This document shows positions 10,639 through 48,454 of a stretch of 64,000 nucleotides of DNA, piece by piece. A model generated the notes under the pieces. That model saw only the letters and a list, made by a program, of their open reading frames with translations, ran no database searches and was not told the DNA's origin. Position numbers and translations under genes: made by a program. Position 1 is the stretch's first letter; each line of letters opens with the position of its first letter. This DNA is from Lacibacter sp. H407 (GTDB lineage Bacteria; Bacteroidota; Bacteroidia; Chitinophagales; Chitinophagaceae): positions 4,154,001 to 4,218,000 of the forward strand of contig NZ_JBBKTU010000001.1 of NCBI RefSeq assembly GCF_037892605.1, written 5' to 3'.

Positions 10639-16325
<5,687 letters not shown>

Positions 16326-16339
16326 GTATGTTGATTTAA

Positions 16340-16379
16340 TCTTTGTGCTCCTTTGTGTCTTCCTGTCATTGTGGTTCAA
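16340..16379. repeat. Dispersed repeat, family 1 (half copy c)
   Basis: Only one arm is present (CTTTGTGCTCCTTTGTGTC through GTGGTTC). It fills the gap between the transporter and GH105 and contributes the VEPQ-stop end of the transporter. Confidence 0.75.
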
Positions 16380-17631
16380 CGGGTCTTCTTCTCCAATAGT
16401 TAGCTAATAAACTTCCGCTGATATTCATCCACGGACTAAACACCGCCGCTGCCAAGCCAACTGTTCCCAACTTACCCATGCTGCCTGCAATACCACTTGC
16501 CATTCCACCGTTTTGCAAACCTACTTCAAAGGCAATGGTGCGACTTGAATTTTTGTCCATCCCAAACAAACGACTCAGCCAGTAACCAAAAAAGTAACCG
16601 GCTGCATTATGAATAACCGATGCAATAAATAACAACACACCCACTTTCATCAAATTTTCTCTTCCTGCTGCAGTTGTTACCGTTGTAAAATAAATAATAC
16701 CAAACATCGAGATTAATGGCATAATGCTATCAAGCTTTGGAAACTTTACCCATAGCCAATGATACAACACACCGGCAATAACAGCACCTGCGAAAAATCC
16801 TGAGAGAGTTATACTTTGTAACAACCCCGCATCACTGATATTCTTTTGTAAGAAGAAAATAATCACAGCAATCCATAGAGCAGAAAAAATAGTAATGATG
16901 TTTACTTTCTTTTTCTGCGTTGACGAAGCCCGTTTCAGAAAATCATGCAACAACGCTGCGCCGATCGGCACCAATACGATCTTGATGATCTCCATCATCA
17001 TGTCTAAAAATTTTATTTCGATCAATGTACCTGCTAACGTTTTCATCAGTAATGGTGTTAGCAACGGCGCTACTAATGTTGCCATTGCTGTTACAATAAC
17101 ACTCAAGACAAGGTTTGCTTTTGCCAGGTATACCATTACATTACTTGCCAACCCGCTGCTACAACTGCCGATCAAAATAATTCCGGCAGCGATCTCCGGT
17201 TCAAATTGAAAAACTTTCGTGAGCAGCAAGCCCATCAAAGGCATAATGGAGAAATGACAAAACAATCCAACCAATACACCTTTACCTGTTGATGCCAATC
17301 CACTGAAGTCTTTTAAACTCATATGCGTTCCCATGCCGAACATCACGAGTTGAATAATGACAAGGATCAATGTTTTATCCCGAAGGTTTACGCCTCCCCA
17401 GTTTTTAAATGCTTCCGGAAAAACCATACCTGCAACAACAGCCGCAATGATCCATGCGGTATACTGATAACCTTTTAACGAGGGCACTGAACCCAAGCCG
17501 ATTGCTAAACAAACTGCTGTTCCAATTGCAAAAGGTTTATACAAAGCTGCATTCTGCATTGCAATGCCAACGAGCAACACAACTGCAGCAATGCCACTTA
17601 ACAGTAAAAAAAGTTTACCTGAATTTTTCAT
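16366..17631 (-). CDS. BASS-family (bile acid:sodium symporter-like) transporter
   Basis: 421 residues with about ten hydrophobic segments, an inner-membrane protein. The family signature GSCSSGLASNVMVYLAKAN followed by ATLVAPLLTPLLMK is plain, as is GMASGIAGSMGKLGTVGLAA near the C-terminus. BASS proteins import organic anions with sodium, for example bile acids, pantoate or keto acids. Directly after a kinase and a RuBisCO-like protein, uptake of a sugar acid is a reasonable inference. The ATG at 17631 is chosen over an in-frame TTG at 17640; AGGA lies about 9 bases upstream. It starts 14 bp after the racemase-fold gene. The last four codons and stop (VEPQ*) fall in a dispersed repeat, so the native C-terminus may have been replaced. 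Confidence 0.88.
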   Translation of the reverse strand: MKNSGKLFLLLSGIAAVVLLVGIAMQNAALYKPFAIGTAVCLAIGLGSVPSLKGYQYTAWIIAAVVAGMVFPEAFKNWGGVNLRDKTLILVIIQLVMFGMGTHMSLKDFSGLASTGKGVLVGLFCHFSIMPLMGLLLTKVFQFEPEIAAGIILIGSCSSGLASNVMVYLAKANLVLSVIVTAMATLVAPLLTPLLMKTLAGTLIEIKFLDMMMEIIKIVLVPIGAALLHDFLKRASSTQKKKVNIITIFSALWIAVIIFFLQKNISDAGLLQSITLSGFFAGAVIAGVLYHWLWVKFPKLDSIMPLISMFGIIYFTTVTTAAGRENLMKVGVLLFIASVIHNAAGYFFGYWLSRLFGMDKNSSRTIAFEVGLQNGGMASGIAGSMGKLGTVGLAAAVFSPWMNISGSLLANYWRRRPVEPQ

Positions 17632-17645
17632 TACAAGCAATCCTG

Positions 17646-18308
17646 TTATTTTATAATTGTTGCTAAGTATTCCATTGCAATTGGCGGACTCGCCAATATC
17701 GGCACTTTCTTTTCTGCTTCGGTTAATGTATCCACTACTCTTGCCATGCTTGCCTGCGCCAATACGATCACATCTACTTCATTGGCTAATTGTTTTAAAG
17801 CATCTCCTACTTTTTTATCGTGTGTTGCTGCATCGCCGCTCATCAATGCTTCAAATGCGCCTTCACATAAAACAGCTTTCAATTCAATTTCTTTTCCTGC
17901 AACAGCCGCTCTTCTTCTCACCAAATCGCTTGTGGGATTTAATGTCGTTGATAGTGTTGCTACTACGCCGATCTTCTTTCCTGTTGCAACAGCTTTGTCG
18001 GCCATTGGTTGATCTACCCGCAACACGGGCACACCTGTTAATGTTGCTGCTGTTTCAACTGCAGGCCCTATTGATGAACAGGTAAACAAAATAAAATCAG
18101 CGCCTGCTTCCTGTGCCGATGCTGCATAGTTCACTACCCGTTTCGAAGTATCTGGAGTTAGTTCATTACGTGCAATGGTATTCTTGATCAAACTATCGTC
18201 AACAATGTTGAATACTTTTACATTCGGTAAATATTTTTTACACAAGTCTGCAAACACAGGCACTAACGTTGCCGATGTGTGAACCAATCCTAAAGTTTTT
18301 TGTGACAT
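17646..18308 (-). CDS. Asp/Glu/hydantoin racemase-fold protein lacking the second catalytic Cys
   Basis: 220 residues, cytoplasmic. The fold is shown by GLVHTSATLVPVF, the first active-site loop DFILFTCSSIGPAVE (Cys77), VPVLRVDQPMADKAV, KIGVVATLSTTLNP and the mirror loop DVIVLAQASMAR. In racemases and maleate isomerase the second loop carries a Cys, but here that position is Ala185. Single-Cys relatives such as arylmalonate decarboxylase keep the other Cys, so this enzyme is probably not a racemase and may do another proton-transfer, isomerase or decarboxylase step. It lies between the DUF1537 kinase and the BASS transporter, after a 116-bp gap filled by dispersed repeats. A role on the same acid-sugar substrate is inferred; no function is assigned. 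Confidence 0.8.
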   Translation of the reverse strand: MSQKTLGLVHTSATLVPVFADLCKKYLPNVKVFNIVDDSLIKNTIARNELTPDTSKRVVNYAASAQEAGADFILFTCSSIGPAVETAATLTGVPVLRVDQPMADKAVATGKKIGVVATLSTTLNPTSDLVRRRAAVAGKEIELKAVLCEGAFEALMSGDAATHDKKVGDALKQLANEVDVIVLAQASMARVVDTLTEAEKKVPILASPPIAMEYLATIIK

Positions 18309-18350
18309 ATCGTTTGTTGTATGATTTAATTTTTATGTTTCGAACATCAG

Positions 18351-18424
18351 TGCTACTATCTTTCTTCTGTTGCGTCGCACTCTTCATCGTTCAGCAATTC
18401 TATTCACCATTCACAATTGACCAT
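18351..18424. repeat. Dispersed repeat family 2 joined to a CATTCA-rich repeat
   Basis: 18351-18396 contains the family 2 core GTTGCGTCGCACTCTTCA; a CCATTCA/ACTCACCATTC tract follows. The same two-part order occurs at 35891-35971. The tract continues into the kinase gene and encodes its last residues NGEL and stop. Confidence 0.75.
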
Positions 18425-19729
18425 TCATAACTCACCATTCAATAACACTTCGAAGTAATTCTCTGCACCCACTTGTCCGCCTTTGAAATTCACCTCCAGT
18501 CCGTTGATCTTTTCATTCTTCGAATAAGCTTTGCATAATGGTGCGCCACTCACCAAAGGGGCAATCATTTCAACCGCATCAATCTCCATTGCTCTTGCTG
18601 CATAACTGCTTGTATCTCCACCGGCTACTACCACACGTTTCACATTTGTGTGCATCACCGCTTGCTTTGCAATCCTGCCCAATGCAGTCCCCAGTTTCTT
18701 CGATGAAAGATTCTCCAGCTCTTTTGCTCCAGTATGAACAATTACTTTCTTCTGTTCCTGTAATAACATCGCTACATGATCCCCTATTGAAGCATCAATC
18801 GTATCCTCATTTGCAATTCTCATTGCATCCAGCACCACTTCAGCAAAACCATTTGCCTTCGCCCATTCAATTTGTGCAGCAGTAACAGGTGAGCAACTTC
18901 CTGATATCACCAACAGCGACTCCGCTTTACCCGGATGCTTCCATGCAGTAACTGGATTCAATATTTTATTTTCATTCCAGTAATTACCTAATGCCGCTTC
19001 CACACTTGAACCACCAACGCTGAACAATGTTTCATTTTCTTCAAGTGTTTCCATCCACTCTCCGATCTTTATTAATTGGAATTCGTTCATTACATCAACC
19101 AGCACCACTTCTTCATCTGTTATTGATTCAGCCCATTGTTTTATTGGTTGTTCAATTTGTGCAATATCAATCAATCCGATTTTCCTATTCGTTTGTTTAC
19201 CGATATGCAAACGCAGATCACTTTCATCAGCTGGTGTTACAGGATGTTTACTCATCGATGGATGACGATCCAACCGATAAATTTTTCCATTACTACCAAT
19301 ACCCATACGAGCAAACAAATTACCAAACACACAATATCTTCCGAGCGATGGAGCTCCACCCAACACCGGTATTAATTTATTCTGAAACACTTCAGCACCA
19401 CAATCGATCGCTTTACCAATGCTTCCAACTGCAGGTGATGAATCAAACGTTGAGCAAACTTTATAATGCACCTGCTTTGCGCCACTCGCTTTCAACTGTT
19501 CAAATGCCGGGATCAATATCTCTTTCATTTGCACAGGTGATAATGATCTTGTTTTGCCCGCCACGCCAATTACATCCAATTGCGGAAACTGTTGCAACTG
19601 TTCTGCTGTTGGCTGTTCAATGAACAGCATAGCTTTTGCACCTGCACGTGTAATAAATTCCAATGCATCGGTACTACCGGTGAAATCATCACCGTAAAAA
19701 GCGAGTAATATGTTTTGTTTTTGATTCAA
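18425..19729 (-). CDS. DUF1537-family four-carbon acid sugar kinase
   Basis: 434 residues, cytoplasmic ATP-dependent kinase. The N-terminal substrate domain begins LLAFYGDDFTGSTDALEF, the hallmark of the family. The C-terminal nucleotide domain has VVVAGGDTSSYAARAM, VSGAPLC and NFKGGQVG. DUF1537 kinases phosphorylate threonate, erythronate, denominate-type acids and 3-oxo-isoapionate (OiaK in D-apiose catabolism). The frame is open to 19810, but every ATG there lies inside the RuBisCO-like gene and gives an odd leader. A TTG at 19727-19729, just after that gene's stop and preceded by GGAAAGAAATAAA, gives the normal family N-terminus and is preferred. OiaK-like function is suggested by the adjacent RuBisCO-like protein but is not proven. 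The last codons come from a repeat. Confidence 0.9.
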   Translation of the reverse strand: MNQKQNILLAFYGDDFTGSTDALEFITRAGAKAMLFIEQPTAEQLQQFPQLDVIGVAGKTRSLSPVQMKEILIPAFEQLKASGAKQVHYKVCSTFDSSPAVGSIGKAIDCGAEVFQNKLIPVLGGAPSLGRYCVFGNLFARMGIGSNGKIYRLDRHPSMSKHPVTPADESDLRLHIGKQTNRKIGLIDIAQIEQPIKQWAESITDEEVVLVDVMNEFQLIKIGEWMETLEENETLFSVGGSSVEAALGNYWNENKILNPVTAWKHPGKAESLLVISGSCSPVTAAQIEWAKANGFAEVVLDAMRIANEDTIDASIGDHVAMLLQEQKKVIVHTGAKELENLSSKKLGTALGRIAKQAVMHTNVKRVVVAGGDTSSYAARAMEIDAVEMIAPLVSGAPLCKAYSKNEKINGLEVNFKGGQVGAENYFEVLLNGEL

Positions 19730-19730
19730 T

Positions 19731-20975
19731 TTATTTCTTTCCAAATTTTTCAACAGCTGCTGCAAACTCTTTATACTGTTTCGCTGCATCTTCCAATGTT
19801 GATCCATCAACAGCCGCTTTCCATGCCTGCTGCAAAGCCACTACGCCTGCCGCTGCTCCCATCGGGTGCGCCATAATACCACCACCGGCCATGTATAACA
19901 GATCAACTGTTTTTGTTCTTCTGTATGTTTCAAATGCCTGTCCACCCCACTGTCCTGATGATACAACCGGCACGACAGTTTTATGATCGAACATTTTTGT
20001 TAAGCATGCTTCAATTGAAGCCACCACACTATCGTCACTCTCCCAGAATTTATTTTGTATCCCGTTCACATGCATTTGATCTGCACCTGCCAATCGCCAT
20101 ATTTTTTGATAGGCTTTATAATCAATCCCCAGCAACGGATGTCTTGTCATCATTCCCCAACCATTACGGTGAGCATGAATTGCCAGCTGACGTTGATCCA
20201 TAATTTTTTTTGCACCTGCCAACCCAACACTGTTAATGCTGATCATAGCACAGGTACCGCCACTGTTAACGATCTTCTCATAACGTTTCAGCATTTCATC
20301 TACTTCACCACTCAGGTTGAATGCATACATTACTTTCTTACCTGTTTTATCTGCATGTGCATTAATGACATTCATCACTGCATCAACACGATCATTAAAA
20401 TTTGAATTGGCAGATGACGAAAGCAGTTCATCATCTTTTACAAAATCAATTCCTGCTTCCGCTAATGTTTTCACCATCGATGCAGTTTGTTCAACTGACA
20501 ATCCAATCGATGGCTTGATGATCGTACCGATCAACGGTCGATCCTGCACTCCTGTTAATGTTCTGCAACCTTCAATACCAAATGCAGGACCTTTGAACTT
20601 TTCTCCGAATGACGCAGGCAGCTCAATATCCATCAACTTCAAACCTGTGAACTGGGTGATCTCGTATAAATTTCCCTGCAATGTTGAAACCATCACCGGC
20701 AGATTGGTTCCAAAATTTTCAATACTCCACGATACTTTCACAATAGCACGGTGATACTTGCCATCCTTACTTGTTGCACCGGGAATGGCTGGTTCATTTA
20801 CTGTTTCCAATACCTCAACCGATTCCACTCTTGCTGCAAAACGTTGTTTGAGTTCTTCTGTTTCACCGGGCACCGCTACAAATGTTCCTGATGATTGTTC
20901 ACCTGCCAACACCGCTGCAGCCTTCTCCGGTGCATACGGCGTTTCAATAAAATATGTTGCTGTTATCCGTTCCAT
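19731..20975 (-). CDS. RuBisCO-like protein (form IV), candidate OiaX/OiaT-type enzyme
   Basis: 414 residues, the length of a RuBisCO large subunit-like protein. Conserved parts are GTIIKPSIGLS (Lys154, like RuBisCO Lys175), DFVKDDE (Lys180, Asp182, Glu183: the carbamylated Lys and metal ligands), IHAHRNG (His269), MHVNGIQNKFWE (His302, Lys309), VVSSGQWGG and GGGIMAHPMG (phosphate loop). The second Lys of the RuBisCO TIKPK motif is Ser156, so it should not fix CO2. Paired with a DUF1537 kinase it resembles the 3-oxo-isoapionate-4-phosphate decarboxylase or transcarboxylase/hydrolase of D-apiose catabolism. Its ATG lies one base after the arabinofuranosidase stop, and the kinase follows directly, so all three are translationally linked. 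Other RuBisCO-like roles (methionine salvage, tetritol isomerase) fit the context less well. Confidence 0.9.
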   Translation of the reverse strand: MERITATYFIETPYAPEKAAAVLAGEQSSGTFVAVPGETEELKQRFAARVESVEVLETVNEPAIPGATSKDGKYHRAIVKVSWSIENFGTNLPVMVSTLQGNLYEITQFTGLKLMDIELPASFGEKFKGPAFGIEGCRTLTGVQDRPLIGTIIKPSIGLSVEQTASMVKTLAEAGIDFVKDDELLSSSANSNFNDRVDAVMNVINAHADKTGKKVMYAFNLSGEVDEMLKRYEKIVNSGGTCAMISINSVGLAGAKKIMDQRQLAIHAHRNGWGMMTRHPLLGIDYKAYQKIWRLAGADQMHVNGIQNKFWESDDSVVASIEACLTKMFDHKTVVPVVSSGQWGGQAFETYRRTKTVDLLYMAGGGIMAHPMGAAAGVVALQQAWKAAVDGSTLEDAAKQYKEFAAAVEKFGKK

Positions 20976-20976
20976 G

Positions 20977-22983
20977 TTATCGCATTAAAGGCAACCAAAC
21001 CGTCATGTCCGCCTTCCCCCTGTTTGCCCAGGCATAGTAAGGAATGAGTTTTATGTTGACAGGTTTGAGTTTTGTATTTACTTCTTTATACAAAGTATTA
21101 TTCCATTGATTCTGATCAAGCAGTCTTGCTTCTCCGGTTAATGCCATTACATTTCCATTATCAATTTTCATCGCAACAGGTTGCAGTTTAATGTTTGAAG
21201 GAATCACCACATCAAATACTTTTTGTTGCGGCAGATCACTTGATTCGAGGCAATAAACAACTGGCCCACGCTTCACCGTTACCTGGTTTCTTGTTTCTTC
21301 TACCAATGGATTGCTTTCGATGAGTGTTGCAGGCATATCCATATTGAGCTCCAGTTTGTCATTTGCTTTTACTGTTAACTCAACAAATCCATTTTCTTTT
21401 TTAGCTGTAACAACTTTTCCATTTTGTTTTAGATCATAGCGTTTGCACCAACCCGGAATACGAATGAAAACTTTCGTTCCATTTTTTGATAACTCTTTTA
21501 CATGGAGTGAAACATTTCCACTCCATGGATAATTAGTCGTCTGTTCCAGTTTGATTTTTGTACCATCATGCAATTCTGTTGCAAGCGTATTGCCGCCATA
21601 CATATTAATGTACAAACCTTTTTCACCAATGCTGTACATATAACTGTTTACTTCTGCAATTGTGCGTACCACATTCGGTGGACAGCAATTCGATTTGCTG
21701 ATATAAGGAATACGGCCGCCTTCCCAGCGAAGATGATAAGGATAGTCTGTTGTTGATGCCAATGGGTTGGTATAAAAATATTTAGATCCATCCATGCTTA
21801 CACCGCTCAATACGCTGTTGTATAAAGTGAGTTCAACAATATCTGCATACTTGCTTTCGCCGGTTAATAAAAACATGCGCCAGTTCCATAACACATTGCC
21901 AATGTTGGCGCAGGTTTCATTGTGTGCACTGAAGTTTGGCAATTGATAATCCCGTCCATAACTCTGATGTACTTTTTGAACAGTATCCGGTTTGTAAGCA
22001 GTACCATCAACACTCACACCATCATACAACGCACCGCAACCACCGGTTACGTACATTTTTGTGTTGATGACGTTACTCCACATTTTGTTCAACGTGTTCA
22101 TTAAGGTTGCATCGCCTGTTTCTGCATACACATCGGCAACACCTGCAAATAAATAATTTGCACGTACAGCATGACCAACCACTTTATTCATTTCACGGAA
22201 TGGTGCACGGTCGCTGTTATCATCAGTCCCTTCAACCGTACCACGGATGTTGATGAGATGAATAACAAGATCTAAATACTTTTTATCGTTTGTTGTGCGA
22301 TACAATTCTGTTAAGCCCATGTAATGCGAAGGACAAATCGCATTCCTTGCTAATTCAGGTGAAGCTGAACTATAAAACCCAATAAGAAAGTCAGCAGCTT
22401 TTTTTGCAATGTTGAGCAAAGTTGCTTTACCTGTTGCACGGTAATGCACACAGGCCGCTGTCATCAAATGACCGAAGTTGTACGCTTCAAAACTCAACTG
22501 ATCATCGAACATTTTTTCTTTGCCTGATTTCTTTTGCTCAATAATATTCTTGGTATAGATATAACCATCCTGCTTTTGTGCTTTACCGATCACATCAATC
22601 GCTTCATCCATCCATTTCTCCAGCTGCGGATCTTTGGTTGATGCATACATAGCTGCAACAGCTTCCAGTGTTTTATAAAAATCACCATCATGAAACGAAG
22701 GACCACGAAAACGTCCGGTATCCAAACCTGCAGCCACTCTGAAATTCTGAAACGAATAACAGATGTCTTTGCTGGTATAAGTTTGCCAAAGCTGCGGCAA
22801 CATCGCATCTCGACAAACAGCAAAACGTTCGGCCCAAAAACCTTTCGTCCACTGTACATCACTCATTCCTACACCGGTAAGCTTTGCATAACTGCTGCCT
22901 TGCGTATTGACCAAACTTGTTTGTGCTGAAGTTTGATTCAGGAATAAAACAGTCAGTAACAAAATTGCACTTAGCCTTTTCAT
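20977..22983 (-). CDS. Secreted GH127/GH146-type beta-L-arabinofuranosidase (DUF1680)
   Basis: 668 residues with signal peptide ILLLTVLFLNQTSA. DUF1680 enzymes cut beta-L-arabinofuranose with a zinc-bound cysteine nucleophile. The Glu-x-Cys pair (Glu356, Cys358 in HNETCANIGN) and the Cys pair (Cys433-Cys434 in SKSNCCPPNV) match the spacing of the zinc site known in the Bifidobacterium enzyme. The (alpha/alpha)6 barrel (GPSFHDGDFYKTLEAVAAMYA, AYNFGHLMTAACVHYRATG) is followed by a C-terminal beta-sandwich (KVFIRIPGWCKRYDLKQNG). Pectic arabinan and rhamnogalacturonan II carry its substrate. It starts 1 bp after the rhamnosidase-like gene and is followed with one base between by the RuBisCO-like protein, tying sugar-acid metabolism to the polysaccharide operon. 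Confidence 0.92.
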   Translation of the reverse strand: MKRLSAILLLTVLFLNQTSAQTSLVNTQGSSYAKLTGVGMSDVQWTKGFWAERFAVCRDAMLPQLWQTYTSKDICYSFQNFRVAAGLDTGRFRGPSFHDGDFYKTLEAVAAMYASTKDPQLEKWMDEAIDVIGKAQKQDGYIYTKNIIEQKKSGKEKMFDDQLSFEAYNFGHLMTAACVHYRATGKATLLNIAKKAADFLIGFYSSASPELARNAICPSHYMGLTELYRTTNDKKYLDLVIHLINIRGTVEGTDDNSDRAPFREMNKVVGHAVRANYLFAGVADVYAETGDATLMNTLNKMWSNVINTKMYVTGGCGALYDGVSVDGTAYKPDTVQKVHQSYGRDYQLPNFSAHNETCANIGNVLWNWRMFLLTGESKYADIVELTLYNSVLSGVSMDGSKYFYTNPLASTTDYPYHLRWEGGRIPYISKSNCCPPNVVRTIAEVNSYMYSIGEKGLYINMYGGNTLATELHDGTKIKLEQTTNYPWSGNVSLHVKELSKNGTKVFIRIPGWCKRYDLKQNGKVVTAKKENGFVELTVKANDKLELNMDMPATLIESNPLVEETRNQVTVKRGPVVYCLESSDLPQQKVFDVVIPSNIKLQPVAMKIDNGNVMALTGEARLLDQNQWNNTLYKEVNTKLKPVNIKLIPYYAWANRGKADMTVWLPLMR

Positions 22984-22984
22984 C

Positions 22985-25267
22985 TTACAGCGCTTTATAG
23001 TTGATTGTATATTCTGTTCCGGTTTTCACTGTGATCTCGTATACATCATTTCCTTTTGCAACTGCTGTCACATTGTTGCCGGAAGGTTGTGTTTTGCTTT
23101 TGAGACGGATGGTTCCTTCACCAGTTGCAGCTTTGATCTTCACCTGCTCTTTACTTACATACAATTCAATGTCTCCGTTTGGTGTTGGCACTTTGCCCTG
23201 CATCCATTCAAGTCCGCCGAGGTTTGGTTCAACAAGGTACGCCACATAACCCGGTGCAGTTGGTTTTACACCGAGATAATACTTGCCAAGCAAATACAAC
23301 GGACTTGCGCCCCACGCATGACATAAACTTTTGCCAAACTCCCTGCCATACATCGCATAATGTTCTGTCCCTTGTTTGGCTGGATTATATTCTTCCCAGA
23401 AACTCGTTGCACCCAGCTTCAACATACCGCCCCAATAGTCTTTCATTTCTTTCAACACATAATTCTGTTCTCCCAAAGCACACAATGCTTCCAGTTCATA
23501 GAAACGCATATAAGGTGTAGTGATCTTCTGAATATTATCATTCAACAGCACCGAAGTTTTTACCTGTTGCTTTTGCTGCTGATTAAAATAATCGAAGAAG
23601 ATGGAGAACATGTTGGCGTAACGGGTTAAATTCTCTGTTTGCTTACCATCAACACGACTATGCACCAACGCTTGCTTTGTATCGTTCCAGTAAATGCTGA
23701 ATAATTTAGTACTCATATCTGCAGCCAATGTATTGTATTGTGCTGCTGCATCTTTATCATTGGCAATGTTGGCACAAAGAGCCATTGTTTCAAGACTTCG
23801 TGCCAATAGCAACTGTTCAAAACTTACTTCGCCTTTTTTACTGAGACCAGCAGCCCAGTCAATAAAGATCCAGTCGCCGGGCATCCATTCCATTAACCCA
23901 TCTTTGTTACGACGGGCCAGCACATAATCCATCAGTGTTTTCATACGATCATAGTTCTGCGAAATAAAACTCTTATCACCTGTGTAGAGATAATAATCAT
24001 AAATGCCGAGGAACCAGTAAAAGGTATAATCCATAATGGTATTGATATGACCAGTCACCGGATCTTTACCACGCAAGGCATAAATTGTTCTTGTCACTGT
24101 TTCCTTATCGAAATAGAGATAATAATTCATCAGATAGCTCTGGTAAGCATCACCACTCCATACCCAACGGTCACGTTTAATACCATCAATAAAAAACTCT
24201 CTTGTGTTCAGTTCAAATGTATATTTCGCTACATCGTAAATACGATTAATCTCTGCATCGTTACAAGTAAAGCTGCCACGTTGTTTTACGTCGGCATACT
24301 CGTAGAGCATCGAAACCGAATCGAGTATTACACCCGCATCGTATTGCACATTTACAAAACGATAGGCTTTCGACAGCTTCATGGTTTGGTCTTTCTTTAC
24401 TGCATTGCTTACATCTACCCTGTCCAACGCTTCGCAATGTTCGGTTGATAAGGCTTCTTCTTTTGATTCGCCATAGTAAACCGACAACTTACCCTTGCCT
24501 TTTACCCCATGCAGTTTAATAAAGCCGAGAGTTTCTTTTCCAAAATCAACCAGCATGGAGTTCTTTCCTTTTACGGTTGATACTGCTGATTGTTTTTTGA
24601 TCGGCAATGTAAACTGTGAAGGCAATTGTGTAGGCGAATTAAAATTCCAGCTTCCGGCATTGAGCCACTTGGTAGCAGAGATATCGGATGTTTTTCCTGT
24701 TTCATCGATCCACTCTTTGTCTTCGAATGTTACCAACCATGATGCATCCGATACAATTGTTTTTCCTTTTACATAAATGGCAGGCACGTTGGCCTGGTTA
24801 AAAACTTTGATATTGATCTTATGTTTACCTGCCGGAACAGTAATGCGTTTCGGACTTCCTTCAAATGCTTTGCCATCGAGCTTTACATTGTATTCGCCTT
24901 CTACATAAATATCAACTGTTTCAGGTGCAGGCACATCAAACACTTTATGAAAATCCATAAGCACATAATGGTTATCCATTTTCCAGAACACGGGAAAGAA
25001 CGTGCCACGTTCGGTACGACGGTTCTGTACTTTGTTTGAAAGATTTATTTCAAAATCGCCGGGATACCAGATCCAGGTTTGAGCGTTGCTTTGAACCACA
25101 GAGGCACAGAGGACACAGAGAAACACAAAGGCTTTACTTCGTGAAACTTTATGACTTTGAGTCTTAGTTGTACTATTCGCTGCATAACGAACAGAACGTA
25201 CAAGTGAGTGACACAACCGAAGTATCATAGTAGCAATAGAGCTGGTGAGCAAAATATTCTTCTTCAT
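22985..25267 (-). CDS. Secreted GH78-like alpha-L-rhamnosidase
   Basis: 760 residues. After a long leader come beta-sandwich domains (VDIYVEGEYNVKLDGK; LVDFGKETLGFIKLHG; KAYRFVNVQYDAG) and an (alpha/alpha)6 barrel with REFFIDGIKRDRWVWSGDAYQ, GLMEWMPGDWIF, ATSFWEEYNP and LCHAWGASPLYLL. A C-terminal beta domain (GLEWMQGKVPTPNGDIEL) ends it. This is the GH78 layout. The usual DCPxRE motif is altered to DGIKRD, so the general acid may be Asp, or the specificity may differ. The ATG at 25267 is 2 bp after the transporter stop. The first 63 residues are built from two repeats: RLCHSLVRSV from family 2, then STTKTQSHK and FVFLCVLCASVVQSNAQ from family 1. The signal core thus begins only near residue 47. 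Confidence 0.82.
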   Translation of the reverse strand: MKKNILLTSSIATMILRLCHSLVRSVRYAANSTTKTQSHKVSRSKAFVFLCVLCASVVQSNAQTWIWYPGDFEINLSNKVQNRRTERGTFFPVFWKMDNHYVLMDFHKVFDVPAPETVDIYVEGEYNVKLDGKAFEGSPKRITVPAGKHKINIKVFNQANVPAIYVKGKTIVSDASWLVTFEDKEWIDETGKTSDISATKWLNAGSWNFNSPTQLPSQFTLPIKKQSAVSTVKGKNSMLVDFGKETLGFIKLHGVKGKGKLSVYYGESKEEALSTEHCEALDRVDVSNAVKKDQTMKLSKAYRFVNVQYDAGVILDSVSMLYEYADVKQRGSFTCNDAEINRIYDVAKYTFELNTREFFIDGIKRDRWVWSGDAYQSYLMNYYLYFDKETVTRTIYALRGKDPVTGHINTIMDYTFYWFLGIYDYYLYTGDKSFISQNYDRMKTLMDYVLARRNKDGLMEWMPGDWIFIDWAAGLSKKGEVSFEQLLLARSLETMALCANIANDKDAAAQYNTLAADMSTKLFSIYWNDTKQALVHSRVDGKQTENLTRYANMFSIFFDYFNQQQKQQVKTSVLLNDNIQKITTPYMRFYELEALCALGEQNYVLKEMKDYWGGMLKLGATSFWEEYNPAKQGTEHYAMYGREFGKSLCHAWGASPLYLLGKYYLGVKPTAPGYVAYLVEPNLGGLEWMQGKVPTPNGDIELYVSKEQVKIKAATGEGTIRLKSKTQPSGNNVTAVAKGNDVYEITVKTGTEYTINYKAL
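25093..25170. repeat. Dispersed repeat, family 1 (copy d, right arm decayed)
   Basis: GAACCACAGAGGCACAGAGG begins the left arm; the right arm is weaker (ATGACTTTGAGTCTTAGTTG). It encodes the signal peptide of the GH78-like protein. Confidence 0.78.
25192..25238. repeat. Dispersed repeat, family 2
   Basis: On the minus strand it reads GCTACTATGATACTTCGG then TTGTGTCACTCACTTGTAC. It lies within the first 25 codons of the GH78-like gene and is also seen at 18351, 26887, 33160 and 35891. Confidence 0.65.
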
Positions 25268-25269
25268 AT

Positions 25270-26859
25270 TTAATGACCATTGAAAATAATGTAAAGAGAT
25301 AGTATAACAAGTCCTAATAAAACAAACAGAATCTTTACCTGCTTATCTGTTTTTGGTAAAGGCGCTGTTTCGATGGCGGCCGTTACTTTGTTTTTATCTA
25401 CCAATGAAATGACGATAGCTGCGACAAACAAAACAAGGAATATATAGAACGAGATGAGGAAATAATGAGGCCACCATGTGTTTTCGCCTGTTGCAGCATC
25501 GGGAGGTAATATCCACAAGTTGAGCATACCAACAAACAAGCTGAATGCAGAACCGACTGATAAAATTAAATTCACGGCCAGCTTGGTTGTGCGTTTCCAG
25601 AATACACTCAATAAAAAAGTAACTGCTAATGGCGGTGCGAGGTAACCAAGTATCGATTGAAAAATATCGAACAGCGTTTTACCTTTTACATTATCCAACG
25701 CAATAGCCATTAACACAGCAAGCACACAACCTGCAATAACAGTGTAGCGACCAACATTGATCTGTTGTTTCACAGTTGCCTTTGGATTGATATTGTTGAC
25801 ATAAATATCTTTTGTAAACACCGTGCTCAATGCATTCAAGGAGGAACCAATGGTTGCCACCAATACAGCGATCAACACACAAATCACCAACCCATTCAAT
25901 CCTGAAGGAAAGAGATTTGTTACCATCGTCATGTAGGCTAACTTATCATCAGTTAAATCGGGGAACAATGCAAAGCACAAAATGCCCGGTAGAATAAACA
26001 TGGGTAATGCCAATACTTTTAACCAGCCGATAAAGTTTACACCGAGCTGTCCCTGTTTTAAATTCTTTGCACCCAATACACTTTGCACCATACTCTGATC
26101 GGTACAGAAAAATGCAACGGCTGATACCGGATAACCCAGCAACAATGCGTGCCACGGATAACCGGGATCGGTTGCTGGATGAATTAAATTCCAGAAATGA
26201 CTAGGTGTTTTGGCAATTAAGGCAGAAATTCCACCAAGCTTTTGCAAACCGATAAACGTTAGTGCCAGAGAAACGATGATCAATAAGATCATTTGAAACA
26301 CATTCACTTTTGCAATAGCTTTTAAACCACCCATGTAGGTAAACAAACCGGAGAATGCAACGAGCACTATTGTTGATTGCCACATGGGTATACCTAATAT
26401 TTGCCGAACTAAAATTCCGCCGCTGAATAAACCAAGGCTCAGCCAGCTGATGAGAATTTTTATCAATGCATAGCCTGCTAAAATATCCTGTGTACTTTTT
26501 CCATAACGTTTGCCCATAAACTCGGGCATGGTACTTACCTTACTTGCAATGTAACGTGGAGCAAACACCATTGCCAGCAGCGTTAAAAAAACAAACGCAT
26601 ACCATTCAAAATTTCCACCCACGATACCTGCCGAAAAACCAATGCTTGCAAATGCAAGTAATGATGAAGGGCCAACATTTGTTCCCCACATGTTGAACCC
26701 AATGTTGTACCAGTTGAGCGAATTGCCAGCCATGAACAGCGTTTCATCTTTTTTCTTGTTGCGGAAACTGGCGATATAACCAATAGCCAGCAACGCAATA
26801 AGATAAATTGCGACAATGGCAAAATCAATTTGCGTAAGCTTATCGTAAATTTTATTCAT
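25270..26859 (-). CDS. Sodium/solute symporter (SSS family), first copy
   Basis: 529 residues with about 13-14 transmembrane segments, an inner-membrane sodium-coupled sugar or organic-anion importer. SSS features include DFAIVAIYLIALLAIGYIAS, MAGNSLNWYNIGFNMWGTNV, FSGLFTYMGGLKAIAKVNVFQ, FCTDQSMVQSVLGAKNLKQG and ATIGSSLNALSTVFTKDIY. The helices and QRxLxA-like loop (QSVLGAK) resemble the SGLT/sugar branch. In a pectin locus it likely imports a released monosaccharide such as rhamnose, arabinose, galactose or apiose; which one is unknown. It ends 2 bp before the GH78-like gene and follows the Gfo/Idh gene across a repeat-filled 133-bp gap. Confidence 0.9.
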   Translation of the reverse strand: MNKIYDKLTQIDFAIVAIYLIALLAIGYIASFRNKKKDETLFMAGNSLNWYNIGFNMWGTNVGPSSLLAFASIGFSAGIVGGNFEWYAFVFLTLLAMVFAPRYIASKVSTMPEFMGKRYGKSTQDILAGYALIKILISWLSLGLFSGGILVRQILGIPMWQSTIVLVAFSGLFTYMGGLKAIAKVNVFQMILLIIVSLALTFIGLQKLGGISALIAKTPSHFWNLIHPATDPGYPWHALLLGYPVSAVAFFCTDQSMVQSVLGAKNLKQGQLGVNFIGWLKVLALPMFILPGILCFALFPDLTDDKLAYMTMVTNLFPSGLNGLVICVLIAVLVATIGSSLNALSTVFTKDIYVNNINPKATVKQQINVGRYTVIAGCVLAVLMAIALDNVKGKTLFDIFQSILGYLAPPLAVTFLLSVFWKRTTKLAVNLILSVGSAFSLFVGMLNLWILPPDAATGENTWWPHYFLISFYIFLVLFVAAIVISLVDKNKVTAAIETAPLPKTDKQVKILFVLLGLVILSLYIIFNGH

Positions 26860-26945: not shown

Positions 26946-27018
26946 GAACCGGGATTCATGGGATTGTTTTGATTTATAGGATTTAATTCCTGTTAATCCC
27001 ACAAATCCAATAAATCAT
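26946..27018. repeat. Dispersed repeat, family 4 (GGATT/AATCC palindrome)
   Basis: GGGATTCATGGGATT on the left pairs loosely with TTAATCCCACAAATCC on the right. A half copy is at 44190-44218 (AAATCCTGTAAATCCCGG). It overlaps the 3' end of the Gfo/Idh gene and encodes its DLLDLWD-stop tail. Confidence 0.7.
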
Positions 27019-28072
27019 AGTTCTGACAAATGTCTTTGATCTTTACTGGCGCACCGGTTTTCAAACTCTTATCCATTGCCTGCAGCAACGCCACGGTTCC
27101 AATTCCTTCCTGCATGTTGGGATAAGCGGTGAAATTTTGTTCAATTGAATCAACAAAGTATTCCAGGTAATTCTGGTACTCTCCTGCATGATGACTCTGA
27201 CCTTCGAAACGGAAATAGTATTTCAATGTGCTGTCACCCCAATGAATAATTTTTTCTTCACCTGTTTTGTCGGTGATGGAATAACGCAGCTCATGATAAT
27301 CGGCCTGTGATGCTCCTAATGTACCACGCAGCACACAGCTCATGCCACTATCCCGTTTAGTTGGTTGTGTTGGGCCTGTGTAACTTCCGCTCACTCTTGC
27401 AATACGACCATCGGTTGCTTTGAAGATGAAGTGCATTGTATCTTCGTTTTTCAAACCTGCAGTTTTTCCATTGCTGCTGATCATACCATAGCCCATCACT
27501 TCTTCAATGTTGGGCAAATACCAACGGATAAAATCTACAGGATGACTTAATCCACCATACAACCATTTGAATGAATCTTCCAATGCCCATTTCTTTTCCA
27601 AAAACCAACGATGATCGGCGTTGTAATGACTTTCGATTGTGATGAGTTCACCGATCTCTCCTGCTTCAAAATCTTTGCGTTGACGTTTGTATGGTTCAAA
27701 GAAACGTGAGCTTTGTCCAACGAAAACTTTTTTACCTGTTTGCAGTTGCAACTCCAGTAATTCTTTTGCCCTGCTCAAATCATCGATAAATGGTTTTGTG
27801 CACACTACATGCTTTCCATGTAGCAATGCCTGTTTGATATGATCGGCATGCAGATGATCGGGAGTATAAATTGCAATGATGTCGATCTCTTCATCGTTGA
27901 GCAGATCTTCGTAGTTGGTTGTATAACTATTAAAATCAAATTCCTTGCAACGTTGTTTGCATAACTCTTCATTGCGATCGCAAATGATTTTGAGATGCAG
28001 CTTTTTGCTTTGCAAAGCTGCACTCATGGTACTGCGGCCTTCACCAACTCCTAAAATTCCGATAGTCAACAT
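26993..28072 (-). CDS. Gfo/Idh/MocA-family NAD(P)-dependent sugar dehydrogenase
   Basis: 359 residues, cytoplasmic, no signal peptide. The Rossmann start TIGILGVGEGRSTMSAAL is followed by DIIAIYTPDHLHADHIKQAL and HVVCTKPF (the Lys-Pro motif with the active-site Lys). The second domain contains ESHYNADHRWFLEKKWALED and GGLSHPVDFIRWYLP. This family oxidises sugars, sugar acids, inositols and lactone precursors; D-apiose dehydrogenase of the apiose pathway belongs to it. Its place in the same direction, upstream of an SSS symporter, rhamnosidase, arabinofuranosidase, RuBisCO-like protein and kinase, makes it a candidate for the first oxidation step of that module. Substrate is not proven. The last eight codons and stop come from a dispersed repeat. 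Confidence 0.87.
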   Translation of the reverse strand: MLTIGILGVGEGRSTMSAALQSKKLHLKIICDRNEELCKQRCKEFDFNSYTTNYEDLLNDEEIDIIAIYTPDHLHADHIKQALLHGKHVVCTKPFIDDLSRAKELLELQLQTGKKVFVGQSSRFFEPYKRQRKDFEAGEIGELITIESHYNADHRWFLEKKWALEDSFKWLYGGLSHPVDFIRWYLPNIEEVMGYGMISSNGKTAGLKNEDTMHFIFKATDGRIARVSGSYTGPTQPTKRDSGMSCVLRGTLGASQADYHELRYSITDKTGEEKIIHWGDSTLKYYFRFEGQSHHAGEYQNYLEYFVDSIEQNFTAYPNMQEGIGTVALLQAMDKSLKTGAPVKIKDICQNYDLLDLWD

Positions 28073-33214: not shown

Positions 33215-33239
33215 ATTCACTTTCTTGCAATTTATTATT

Positions 33240-34226
33240 TTAAAACACACTTTCTTCATTAAAACCTGAACCGGCAAATGATTGCACATCCACTTTCTGA
33301 ATCTGTAACCGTTCGCACCAATGTTCAAAGCGGCTATGTATATCATCAAGCGTATTGCGTTGTTCTGGTGTTAACTTGGCTGCAACGGCACGACTGATAG
33401 TTCTTACAGGCAAGCCCCGCTTTTGTAAAAAATATTTTGCACTCATGGGATATGCAATATGAATGAGCGGATCGACTTTTGTCAACTCTTCCTGTAACCA
33501 TTTCACTTCTTCCTGTTTATCGGGATTGGTTGCATTGTTCACCATCCACACCATTACTTCTGGATAAAAATTACCAGAAATGGATGACATGCCTTTCGCT
33601 CCCTGTTGCAGACTGAATGATGCATTGGGCGTATGTGCATCATAAAACTCCATACTGTTATTCGTCTCTTTCAATATCGCAAGTTTCGCTTGCACATTTT
33701 CATGTGTGATCGAAGTATCCTTATGATAAGTCAATCGATTTGCTGAAAGTAATTGGCGGAACACATCTGGACTGATGATACGTTTGTATGGTGCCGGACA
33801 TTCGTACATACCCAAAGGAATATTACCTGTAGCCTGGAACAGTTGCTCAAAATTGCGTAACAACACATCATCACTATCTTCTTCTTTTGCAAAGTGCCCC
33901 GTGATCATGATCGCAGCATCAATACCCGTATCATAAATTTTACGAATGAAAAGTGCTTTGTCTGCAATGGTGAGCCCAAACGAACCTGTTGCAACAACAG
34001 GCACACGCCCTCTCACCTGTTTTACAATATGTGCAGTCAGGTTCAATCGTTCATTTTCTGTGATGCTGAACATTTCGCTGCTGAGACAGTTGGCGAAGAA
34101 ACCTTTTACACCGGCAGCTAAATAAAATTCGATCAATGTAGTTACCACATCCAGGTCAACCTCTGCTTTGAGATCGTATGGAGTGATCATAACCGGGACA
34201 AACTTTTTATCAGGCATAACAACCAT
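33240..34226 (-). CDS. Dihydrodipicolinate synthase/N-acetylneuraminate lyase-family aldolase
   Basis: 328 residues, cytoplasmic TIM-barrel class I aldolase. Motifs are VPVMITPYDLKAEVDLDVV, GVKGFFANCLSSEMFSIT (in place of the usual GTTGE loop), VPVVATGSF, the Tyr region LGMYECPAPYKR, and the Schiff-base Lys in LTYHKDTSITH. The family cleaves or dehydrates 2-keto acids such as sialic acid, 2-keto-3-deoxy-gluconate/galactonate and related acids. The ATG at 34226 is preferred over an upstream one at 34253; 34217 is also possible. It lies 73 bp downstream of an SSS symporter, the same pairing as in sialic acid loci. In a pectin locus the substrate may be a 2-keto-3-deoxy acid (Kdo, Dha or a uronate product); this is inference. 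Confidence 0.87.
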   Translation of the reverse strand: MVVMPDKKFVPVMITPYDLKAEVDLDVVTTLIEFYLAAGVKGFFANCLSSEMFSITENERLNLTAHIVKQVRGRVPVVATGSFGLTIADKALFIRKIYDTGIDAAIMITGHFAKEEDSDDVLLRNFEQLFQATGNIPLGMYECPAPYKRIISPDVFRQLLSANRLTYHKDTSITHENVQAKLAILKETNNSMEFYDAHTPNASFSLQQGAKGMSSISGNFYPEVMVWMVNNATNPDKQEEVKWLQEELTKVDPLIHIAYPMSAKYFLQKRGLPVRTISRAVAAKLTPEQRNTLDDIHSRFEHWCERLQIQKVDVQSFAGSGFNEESVF

Positions 34227-34299
34227 TTTTTGAGTGCATAAATGTGCAATCATTCAAACCTTTATAAAATGCTGCATTTAACTATTCTGCTGTACAATT

Positions 34300-47047: not shown

Positions 47048-48454
47048 TTAGGGTTTTAAAGTCCCTCCTTTGGAGTGGTTTGGGGAGGCCTCAAGAATTA
47101 ATACCCAATCGTTTCCGTCTTTCTGTTCACCGGGAGGATCAAAAGTGGTTGTACCTTTTTTATATCCCACAACCGGTTGTTGTTTACCGTTAGCCGGATT
47201 GAACCAGTTTGCTTTTGATGCAGCAAACTTCAGCTTCGTTGCATCAATCGTAAATGAGCTTCCGTTGTACACATAAAACATTGCATAGTTTGTCCCCCTT
47301 GTTGCAGCAACACGATTGTAACGTTCGCCACAGTCAACCACTAATTCCTGCGCAGGCACACGATCGAAATACGATTTACTCAACATAAGTTTTTTCAAAT
47401 GAACCATTTGTGTTGCACCCGGAGATAACAACGCCTGCTTCCAGTTCATGGTGACACCATAGTTGGCTGTCCAATCGCCCATTTTATTAAACTGCATAGT
47501 TGCATTTTCACCATAGGTAAAACCTGCACCACCTGCAAACACACTCCAGTATGCATAGCGGCGAATATCTGCATCCGTCCAGCGGGGCTGTAAACTGTCG
47601 TGCAAACCATGTGGAATATTCTCGTATGAAGGTTCTCCATCCAATGTTGGCTTCACCGGTTTTAAGTTGTAATCAACAGCAATGAACTTCCAGTTGTCTT
47701 CGCCGTAATGATTTGTTTCGTTGCTGCTGGTATCCTGCGCATAATCTTTGTGCCCGCTTTGGAACATATTAAAATCAAGCCATGATTCGTTATGAAACCA
47801 ATCGCTTGAAGATGTTCTGCCACGTGGATGATACGTCACTAAATGTTTCGGATCGTATTTCTTTAATGTGGGACCAATCACTTTCCACACATCCATTCCT
47901 TCTGTTCCCTTAACATCACCACCATTAAGCCAGATAATGTTTGTTTTGTTTTTATAACGATTTGCTAAAAACTTTGCATACGCTTCACCCTGCTGTGCAT
48001 TTACTTTTCCTCCTTTTACATTGCTGCCCCAAACAGGAACCATCGCCATATAAATACCACGTTTCGCAGCTTCGTTCACAATAAAATCCACATGATCCCA
48101 ATAATCGTAAGCAGTAGTATCGGCAAAATTATTTCCGGGAGTAACATTCGGCTTCGCTGCATCTTCATTGATCAACGCATAATCACCATAAACATTCTTT
48201 GTATTGTTCATGTCATGCAACACCATTACCTGCACTACATTAAAGCCTTGCTGCTTTCTTGTTTCGAGATATTTAATCGCATCTTCACGGCTGCACTTTA
48301 CAAATAACAACCAACCGGTATCACCTATCCAGAAAAATGGTTTTCCATCTGCTGTTTGAAAAAACCGTTTGTTGGCAGATACTTTCAACTGTTGTACCTG
48401 CGCATTTGCAAACAATGAAAGCAATACAAACACTATCGTTAATCTATTCTTCAT
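47048..48454 (-). CDS. Secreted GH140-type apiosidase (DUF4038)
   Basis: 468 residues with signal peptide TIVFVLLSLFANAQ. The DUF4038 barrel is clear: FFQTADGKPFFWIGDTGWLL, ETRKQQGFNVVQVMVLHDMN, DYWDHVDFIVNEAAKRGIYM, KTNIIWLNGGDVKG (candidate acid/base Asp180) and PTLDGEPSYENIPHG (candidate nucleophile Glu274). A C-terminal DUF5060/PF12904-like beta domain follows (VVDCGERYNRVAATRGTNYA, WFNPANGKQQPV). GH140 enzymes cut the D-apiose linkage to homogalacturonan in rhamnogalacturonan II. Some DUF4038 proteins may act on other sugars, so the activity is likely rather than sure. The last 13 residues (ASPNHSKGGTLKP) come from a dispersed repeat. It pairs logically with the RuBisCO-like/kinase module at 17.6-21 kb. 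It starts 3 bp after the DUF6298 gene. Confidence 0.86.
   Translation of the reverse strand: MKNRLTIVFVLLSLFANAQVQQLKVSANKRFFQTADGKPFFWIGDTGWLLFVKCSREDAIKYLETRKQQGFNVVQVMVLHDMNNTKNVYGDYALINEDAAKPNVTPGNNFADTTAYDYWDHVDFIVNEAAKRGIYMAMVPVWGSNVKGGKVNAQQGEAYAKFLANRYKNKTNIIWLNGGDVKGTEGMDVWKVIGPTLKKYDPKHLVTYHPRGRTSSSDWFHNESWLDFNMFQSGHKDYAQDTSSNETNHYGEDNWKFIAVDYNLKPVKPTLDGEPSYENIPHGLHDSLQPRWTDADIRRYAYWSVFAGGAGFTYGENATMQFNKMGDWTANYGVTMNWKQALLSPGATQMVHLKKLMLSKSYFDRVPAQELVVDCGERYNRVAATRGTNYAMFYVYNGSSFTIDATKLKFAASKANWFNPANGKQQPVVGYKKGTTTFDPPGEQKDGNDWVLILEASPNHSKGGTLKP
47060..47092. repeat. Dispersed repeat, family 3-like (CCTCCTTTGGAG type)
   Basis: CCCTCCTTTGGAGTGG then TTTGGGGAGGCC: an arm pair that encodes the C-terminal tail of the GH140 protein. 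Confidence 0.6.

Follow-up and report, generated by a model that had tools for sequence, protein, structure and literature searches.

What does a RuBisCO-like protein act on in a locus for the breakdown of pectin? The window, which is the whole stretch of 64,000 nucleotides of Lacibacter sp. H407 DNA that was analysed, contains a gene for such a protein (RLP) followed by genes for a DUF1537 kinase (KIN), a racemase-fold protein (RACE), and a BASS transporter, all of them directly downstream of a GH127 hydrolase gene. These four genes are here called the cassette, and their substrate is probably aceric acid, a sugar of rhamnogalacturonan II (RG-II).

Table 1. Features of the cassette and its surroundings in the 64,000-nucleotide window. 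Bit scores are given with model cut-offs where these apply.
Feature	Position	Strand	Basis
AceH, GH127 aceric acid hydrolase, probably secreted	20977..22983	-	NF049879 1152.9 bits (cut-off 950); GH127 domains (catalytic, middle, C); CCPPN motif
RLP, RuBisCO-like protein, proposed transcarboxylase/hydrolase	19731..20975	-	PF00016 (RuBisCO_large) 216.6 bits; best NCBIfam match OiaX 517.4, cut-off 700
KIN, DUF1537 (four-carbon acid sugar) kinase, TTG start	18425..19729	-	PF07005 and PF17042; OiaK model 411.6, cut-off 700
RACE, single-cysteine protein of the Asp/Glu-racemase fold, proposed aldose-ketose isomerase	17646..18308	-	PF01177 (Asp_Glu_race) 87.8 bits
BASS/SBF transporter, proposed aceric acid importer	16366..17631	-	ATG at 17631, reading frame open to 17640; PF01758 (SBF) 112.2 bits
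Alpha-rhamnosidase-like protein, conserved upstream neighbour	22985..25267	-	PF21209/PF17389; in 23/28 stretches compared
SSS sodium:solute symporter, frequent non-core neighbour	25270..26859	-	PF00474; in 21/28 stretches compared
Gfo/Idh/MocA oxidoreductase, frequent non-core neighbour	26993..28072	-	PF01408; in 20/28 stretches compared
GH88/GH105-type hydrolase, downstream neighbour	15114..16379	-	PF07470 (Glyco_hydro_88) 343.9 bits; in 7/28 stretches compared
Apiosidase-type hydrolase, same RG-II locus, outside the cassette	47048..48454	-	PF13204 378.3 bits

One base separates the TAA of the hydrolase reading frame from the ATG of RLP, and a TTG one base past the RLP stop opens the kinase reading MNQKQNILLAFYGDDFTG. 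The listed kinase open reading frame opens further upstream; the start in Table 1 was chosen because homologues begin at about the same place. There are 116 bp between KIN and RACE, and 5 bp between RACE and the BASS open reading frame. No terminator-like sites were found between the cassette genes, a result of little weight since the whole scan returned 15 sites against 11.7 in shuffles. The first-pass annotation had described this same layout, down to a GH105-type gene at its end, and it is borne out by the coordinates and the Pfam matches, the Glyco_hydro_88 gene being presumably of the GH105 type.

The hydrolase had been called a beta-L-arabinofuranosidase. It matches instead, with a whole-protein score above the cut-off, the aceric acid hydrolase model NF049879, and is by this score predicted to be an aceric acid hydrolase (AceH); in meeting this equivalog model it resembles the BT1003-type aceric acid hydrolase of Bacteroides RG-II loci. 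It also has a CCPPN motif, which is meaningful for GH127. The locus also contains apiosidase, BT_1020-like, GH141, and GH106 families and the N-terminal part of the glucuronidase/arabinofuranosidase model NF049877, all of which we take to have RG-II roles. RG-II is present in primary walls throughout land plants, and aceric acid is among the rarest of the plant cell wall sugars. It is described as 3-C-carboxy-5-deoxy-L-xylose, a sugar of RG-II (PMC5698469). Matches to the AceH model were found in three of 14 control genomes, one of the three being over the cut-off. Among these controls, Bacteroides ihuae contrasts with the window in matching the AceH model without a match to the RLP model. Three verrucomicrobial AceH proteins score 875 to 917 bits, under the cut-off.

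The best NCBIfam match of RLP is to the OiaX model NF042437, although the score is under the cut-off that two rhizobial OiaX pass with 784.7 and 774.9 bits. No protein is over this cut-off in the 294 genomes of the family sample or in the 395 genomes of the phylum sample. OiaK and OiaX belong to the D-apiose pathway, in which OiaX is the 3-oxo-isoapionate-4-phosphate decarboxylase (Carter et al. 2018, cited in PMC6302742). The cassette is like this system in having an RLP and then a DUF1537 kinase. A phylogeny with OiaX, as suggested at first pass, places the cassette RLPs in a clade of their own (100/99), sister to the OiaX decarboxylases (support 99/90). This position beside OiaX would permit plain decarboxylation. 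The active sites, however, differ at five positions: E60, N123, S177, H327, and S379 are present in 106/106 cassette RLPs, where the two rhizobial OiaX have D, G, A, Q, and G. The last of these positions corresponds to S339. The catalytic residues of RuBisCO are retained in the cassette RLPs except for K177, which is S in all 106; an M in the K334 column of the form II row is a local misalignment. Two loci, L104 and L159, were left out of this alignment, the simple ORF caller having given no RLP there. Assignment of RLP to RuBisCO forms I to III was rejected on its TIGR03326 score (253.7, below 497.45), on S at position 177, and on its place in the tree. Assignment to the methionine-salvage enolase MtnW was rejected on its TIGR03332 score (159.7, below 513.6) and the tree, so the grouping with methionine-salvage enzymes that the first-pass annotation had named as speaking against its reading does not occur.

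KIN contains both halves of DUF1537, SBD_N at 180.9 and NBD_C at 100.4 bits, each over its gathering score. It is below the cut-off of the OiaK model NF042436, as are the kinases beside the two true OiaX (473.5 and 433.0). A structure model of RACE (pLDDT 95.7) has the racemase fold. RACE shares this fold and the first catalytic cysteine with the Asp/Glu and hydantoin racemases and arylmalonate decarboxylase, and differs from them in having Gln185 at the position of the second cysteine. RACE therefore does not have both catalytic cysteines of the two-cysteine Asp/Glu racemases: C77 is kept in 102/102 sequences, and Q185 lies inside a conserved LAQASMAR stretch. The transporter is over the SBF gathering score of 24.3 and scores 210.1 on the PanS model, under the cut-off of 400. 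BASS proteins transport anions, and an acid substrate thus fits better than neutral apiose. Where the cassette has BASS and RACE, one Rhizobium OiaX locus has genes of a ribose-type ABC transporter together with an ApnO candidate, a TIM, and an RpiB-type isomerase.

Conservation of the neighbourhood, a check named at first pass, is extensive. The order RLP, kinase, RACE, BASS is present in all 27 family-sample genomes with an RLP (that of the window included) and in 61 of the 69 loci judged in a wider contig scan, and an arrangement kept to this extent is not due to chance. The scan returned 80 loci, of which 11 were too short downstream to be judged; L104 and L159 are counted among the exceptions. 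At least seven of the 80 loci are from family-sample genomes (L088, L092, L098, L105, L108, L122, and L163), so that there is some duplication among the 106 RLP and 102 RACE sequences. In Dyadobacter, four loci have all four genes with BASS and RACE inverted. Two Flectobacillus-type loci, L099 and L100, have no kinase nearby, and a kinase 51-52% identical is found elsewhere in both genomes; RACE and BASS are also not seen near RLP in L099. The cassette can stand alone, as between genes for Hsp70 and a class II tRNA synthetase (L066) or among inositol-phosphatase, glutamate-dehydrogenase, and binding-protein genes (L063), which suggests that the four genes may suffice.

The RLP occurs with AceH. 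In the family sample 27 genomes have RLP and 49 have AceH over the cut-off, with all 27 being within the 49 (Fisher p 4e-25). With kinship handled by genus collapse alone, the figures are 16 of 16 RLP genera against 23 of 101 (p 1.5e-13). In the phylum sample, a cassette-type RLP (491-517 bits) is present in eight genomes, three of which are also in the family sample; AceH is over the cut-off in all eight and in 20 of the 395 overall, and in none of the 117 phylum-sample genomes with weaker RuBisCO relatives only (225 bits or less). RACE follows the same pattern, being present in 27/27 RLP genomes of the family sample against 0/22 AceH genomes without RLP, and its eight strong matches in the phylum sample (374 bits or more) are in the same genomes as the eight RLP. 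Among plasmids, an RLP more than 60% identical (74%) is present in a single record, which also has the closest plasmid AceH (59%). Croceibacterium was considered as independent proof and set aside: a GH127-like gene, RLP, and kinase are in a row there, but the AceH model gives only 87 bits.

Families, cassette integrity, active-site letters, and the co-occurrence and adjacency of AceH were computed directly; from these we infer the substrate, every reaction, and the order of the steps below, with the function of AceH being assigned by homology. Aceric acid would be released outside the cytoplasm by AceH and its anion imported by BASS. RACE would convert the aldose to the 2-ketose HOCH2-CO-C(OH)(COO-)-CHOH-CH3, which is 3-oxo-isoapionate with a CH2OH branch swapped for CHOH-CH3. 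KIN would phosphorylate the CH2OH of this ketose. In the RLP the tertiary carboxylate would leave as CO2 and be re-added to the adjacent enediolate carbon, after which hydration of the ketone and cleavage would give 3-phosphoglycerate and lactate. OiaT has the products 3-phosphoglycerate and glycolate. In Xanthobacter it is described as carrying out transcarboxylation and hydrolysis of 3-oxo-isoapionate-4-phosphate (PMC6302742), and the chemistry proposed for RLP would be alike on a different substrate. If 3-phosphoglycerate is the product, pyk would be expected near RLP-kinase pairs. It is near two of seven annotated pairs with the same active-site letters (L180 and L181, the latter also with eno), and none was seen in the stretch read for the other five. 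The SSS transporter and the Gfo/MocA oxidoreductase, although frequent neighbours, have no role in the proposed pathway.

The mechanism in full, from import through to the carboxyl shift and split, stands at about even chances. Its weakest step is RACE as an isomerase; the Asp/Glu-racemase fold is not known to us from any aldose-ketose isomerase. That the four genes form a complete aceric acid pathway, without net CO2 exchange and fed by the first such racemase-fold isomerase, is a tentative proposal and falls somewhat short of even chances. An unlikely alternative ending for aceric acid is that RLP only decarboxylates, giving a 5-deoxy-pentulose 1-phosphate that an aldolase of the rhamnulose/fuculose-1-phosphate type would split to DHAP and acetaldehyde. 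OiaX being both the sister group and the best NCBIfam match is consistent with this, while the five active-site differences from OiaX argue against it, as does the lack of an aldolase among the four cassette genes, though a housekeeping one could serve.

The first-pass annotation had assigned the module to apiose and 3-oxo-isoapionate, and since an apiosidase is present in the window locus and in 49/49 AceH genomes, co-occurrence alone cannot tell apiose from aceric acid. OiaX and OiaK are also the best-scoring models, and a Gfo/MocA oxidoreductase often adjoins the cassette. Action on 3-oxo-isoapionate from RG-II apiose is nevertheless very unlikely, and the assignment was not upheld. Adjacency points away from apiose, with AceH within 150 bp of RLP in 15/27 family-sample genomes and apiosidase in 0/27. 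Some genomes weigh against the aceric acid reading: AceH is more than 25 kb from RLP or on a different contig in 6/27, and apiosidase is closer than AceH in three (G004, G018, and G172). RLP is under the OiaX cut-off, the OiaX letters are in 0/106 cassette RLPs, and an ApnO (apionate-oxidoisomerase) candidate query is without a match in 26 of the 27 genomes, with one marginal fragment in the other. The four genes include neither a dehydrogenase nor a lactonase, and 22 genomes have apiosidase and AceH without the cassette. A non-oxidative apiose route has been described for E. coli SE15 (PMC13001218). With its AptA and AptB as queries, the genome of the window gave, besides full-length transketolase genes, two split ones that lie unlinked at a distance of about 190 kb (40% and 31% identity); the three E. 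coli apiose-route proteins matched no apiose-specific NCBIfam model at E 1e-10 or better. It is also quite unlikely that another RG-II acid (Dha, Kdo, or uronate-derived) is the substrate, with AceH a mere neighbour in a locus that handles several acids. This would suit those loci of the contig scan that show no AceH nearby. Using a purpose-made profile on the 60 loci having more than 9 kb on each side (L104 and L159 left out), AceH was found in 31, within 300 bp in 19, and an apiosidase-like gene in three, within 300 bp in none. AceH was not seen within the flanks of about 10 kb in the other 29, which we take to be 11 from Flavobacterium, seven from genera of Sphingobacteriaceae, and 11 others including three Verrucomicrobiota. 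Against another acid are the presence of AceH in 27/27 and 8/8 cassette genomes and the chemistry, by which aceric acid alone of the RG-II acids would have a tertiary carboxylate giving, on isomerisation, a beta-keto acid of the kind used by enzymes of this type.

To our knowledge no catabolic route has been described for the aceric acid of RG-II, and among the matches listed from CC-licensed PMC papers there was no description of such a route or of the cassette route. If the aceric acid reading is correct, the cassette would supply this missing route, the RuBisCO superfamily would have a carbon-cleaving role in catabolism on a substrate new to it, and the racemase fold would gain a role in sugar isomerisation. 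The broader claim of the first-pass annotation, that an RLP and DUF1537 kinase module for branched acid sugars is integral to Bacteroidota pectin loci, has held, the module being here a standing part of RG-II loci. Neither RLP nor RACE is present in 22 of the 49 AceH genomes of the family sample, and the cassette, which is carried by some bacteria of soil and water, may set apart RG-II degraders that use aceric acid from others that do not.

The genome that holds the window (4.87 Mb; G000:C1:4154001-4218000) has there a long minus-strand gene run with a SusC-like receptor and pectin enzymes, including apiosidase, BT_1020-like, GH141 and GH106 proteins and a partial match to the glucuronidase/arabinofuranosidase model NF049877. 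Within the run, transcription order is a rhamnosidase-like protein, a GH127 aceric acid hydrolase (AceH), a RuBisCO-like protein (RLP), a DUF1537 kinase (KIN), an Asp/Glu-racemase-fold protein (RACE), an SBF-type transporter (BASS) and a GH88/105-type hydrolase. The first-pass annotation was right in the order from the GH127 gene onwards and in the spacing: a single base lies between the upstream hydrolase stop and the RLP start, and again one base separates the stop codon of the RLP from the TTG with which KIN begins. It had called the upstream gene a beta-L-arabinofuranosidase, which does not stand, as it scores 1152.9 bits on the NCBIfam aceric acid hydrolase model (cut-off 950). The KIN-RACE gap is 116 bp here (18309-18424) and varies among the family loci from overlap to over 200 bp; short repeated GAATGGT words are present in it and at the kinase end.

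The four-gene cassette is conserved in other genomes. In the family sample of 294 genomes the OiaX (3-oxo-isoapionate-4-phosphate decarboxylase) model identified an RLP in 27, at 488 to 534 bits, none of the 294 reaching the cut-off of 700, and all 27 have RLP, KIN, RACE and BASS in that order. The best 80 of 560 RLP relatives in a genome_contigs scan came from Chitinophagaceae, Cytophagales, Sphingobacteriaceae, Flavobacterium, Fodinibius and Verrucomicrobiota, the nearest named among them being Chitinophagaceae MAGs (96%). From these, 61 of 69 judgeable loci keep the order; the exceptions are four Dyadobacter loci with all four genes, two inverted, two Flectobacillus-type loci whose genomes encode a kinase at another site, and two where the RLP ORF was not called. 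Two family cassettes stand away from rhamnogalacturonan-II (RG-II) genes, based on ten annotated neighbours. One (L066) has Hsp70 on one side and a class II tRNA synthetase on the other. The second (L063) is set among genes for an inositol-phosphatase family protein, glutamate dehydrogenase and a binding protein; a 3-keto-disaccharide hydrolase family gene and an alpha/beta hydrolase are close by as well.

AceH is above cut-off in 49 of the 294 genomes, including all 27 with RLP; by genus, it is in 16/16 with RLP versus 23/101. A second sample, taken from the phylum as a whole (395 genomes, three RLP genomes shared with the first), has AceH above cut-off in 20 genomes, including all 8 with cassette-type RLP, and in none of the 117 with only weaker RuBisCO relatives. 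RACE is in 27/27 RLP genomes and 0/22 AceH genomes without RLP; in the phylum sample its 8 strong matches are the same 8 RLP genomes, with 4 weak matches (<26 bits) elsewhere. The first-pass annotation proposed a module of apiose type, and since apiosidases are present in all 49 AceH genomes, co-occurrence alone cannot exclude an apiose-derived substrate. Gene distance argues against it, however: RLP lies within 150 bp of AceH in 15/27 genomes and within 15 kb in 21/27, versus 0/27 and 1/27 for apiosidase, and where a single contig carries all three genes (23 genomes), AceH is the closer in 20. Furthermore, a candidate apionate oxidoisomerase (ApnO) query had no match in 26 of the 27 and a marginal fragment in one.

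Compared with two OiaX, the RLP is 46-50% identical; with RLPs that directly precede a DUF1537 kinase, from Rhizobium Kim5, Bradyrhizobium, Haloterrigena, Roseibium, Azospirillum and Paracoccus, identity is 45-55%. In the tree the cassette RLPs group as a single clade (100/99) next to OiaX (99/90), which itself has a long branch. A repeat tree with fewer rows gave this again (97/93). In spinach RuBisCO numbering, all 106 cassette RLPs keep E60, T65, N123, K175, K201, D203, E204, H294, R295, H327, K334, S379, G403 and G404, and have S for K177. The two OiaX differ, with D60, G123, A177, Q327 and G379, whereas other RLP-kinase pairs share E60, N123, H327 and S379; their residue at 177 is S or N. 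Pyruvate kinase, expected nearby, like enolase, if the product is 3-phosphoglycerate, is near two of seven annotated pairs with these letters (L180, L181), one also with enolase; five show none. ApnO-like genes are near L181 and L183, which may therefore be apionate loci. We infer that the cassette RLP is of the OiaT type (transcarboxylation/hydrolysis, described for Xanthobacter in PMC6302742); the comparison with OiaT is one of chemistry.

The RACE AlphaFold model is confident (pLDDT 95.7), and its best PDB matches are glutamate, aspartate and hydantoin racemases, with arylmalonate decarboxylase lower. Two-base racemases need both catalytic cysteines, but RACE has only the first, C77 (102/102), with Q185 aligned at the second. 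A single base would suffice for aldose-ketose proton transfer, unlike the racemase reaction. Aceric acid could be isomerised to HOCH2-CO-C(OH)(COO-)-CHOH-CH3, the 3-oxo-isoapionate skeleton bearing a CHOH-CH3 branch. Its CH2OH would then be phosphorylated, and OiaT-type chemistry would yield 3-phosphoglycerate and lactate. Four proteins are required in all, one each to import, isomerise, phosphorylate and cleave, in agreement with the cassette and with those copies of it that stand alone. This model is weakest on the part assigned to RACE, on transcarboxylation versus decarboxylation by the RLP, on what the frequently neighbouring Gfo/MocA and SSS genes do, and on the absence of AceH within ~10 kb in 29 of 60 long-flank loci (genome_contigs).

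RLP-DUF1537 acid-sugar pathways are already known; it is the substrate that is probably new. In the mainly open-access literature, covered largely by title, no paper describes how aceric acid is catabolised or places an RLP within a polysaccharide utilisation locus, and the passages about aceric acid in PMC7939467, PMC12168206, PMC6353982, PMC12282258, PMC5698469 and PMC10850190 contain no catabolic route for it. Apiose degradation has been demonstrated for Bacteroides and Clostridia, according to PMC13001218.

Features of the window and of related loci
Feature	Location	Remarks
NF049877 partial match	window 10639-11805	388-aa stand-alone protein; positions 4-358 of the 1400-position model (N-terminal part)
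Esterase-like region + xylose-isomerase-like TIM barrel	window 30869-33349	826 aa
DHDPS-family aldolase	window 33240-34253	adjoins the 826-aa protein
SSS transporter	window 34300-35856	near the 826-aa protein and the aldolase
CoA-transferase III/MaoC-type clusters	L110:2401-9994; L113:161-4298; L192:143-10018	
GH127-like gene, RLP, kinase (Croceibacterium plasmid)	L192:18166-22519	overlapping, in this order

Among plasmid records, just one, from Rufibacter tibetensis (L177, NZ_CP012644; typed as mobilizable), has an RLP above 60% identity. It bears the cassette and the closest plasmid AceH, ~140 kb from the RLP, and the RG-II trait may therefore move between strains. In Mucilaginibacter, CoA-transferase III, MaoC hydratase, solute-binding-domain, Gfo/MocA and transporter genes (Pfam) are beside the cassette; Pedobacter loci have genes of comparable size. 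A similar gene set is near an RLP-kinase pair of the Croceibacterium plasmid. All these clusters are perhaps a second RG-II acid pathway, not yet described. The GH127-like gene of the Croceibacterium plasmid is not AceH by its model score. Elsewhere this plasmid carries a RACE relative (56%) and an MFS gene.
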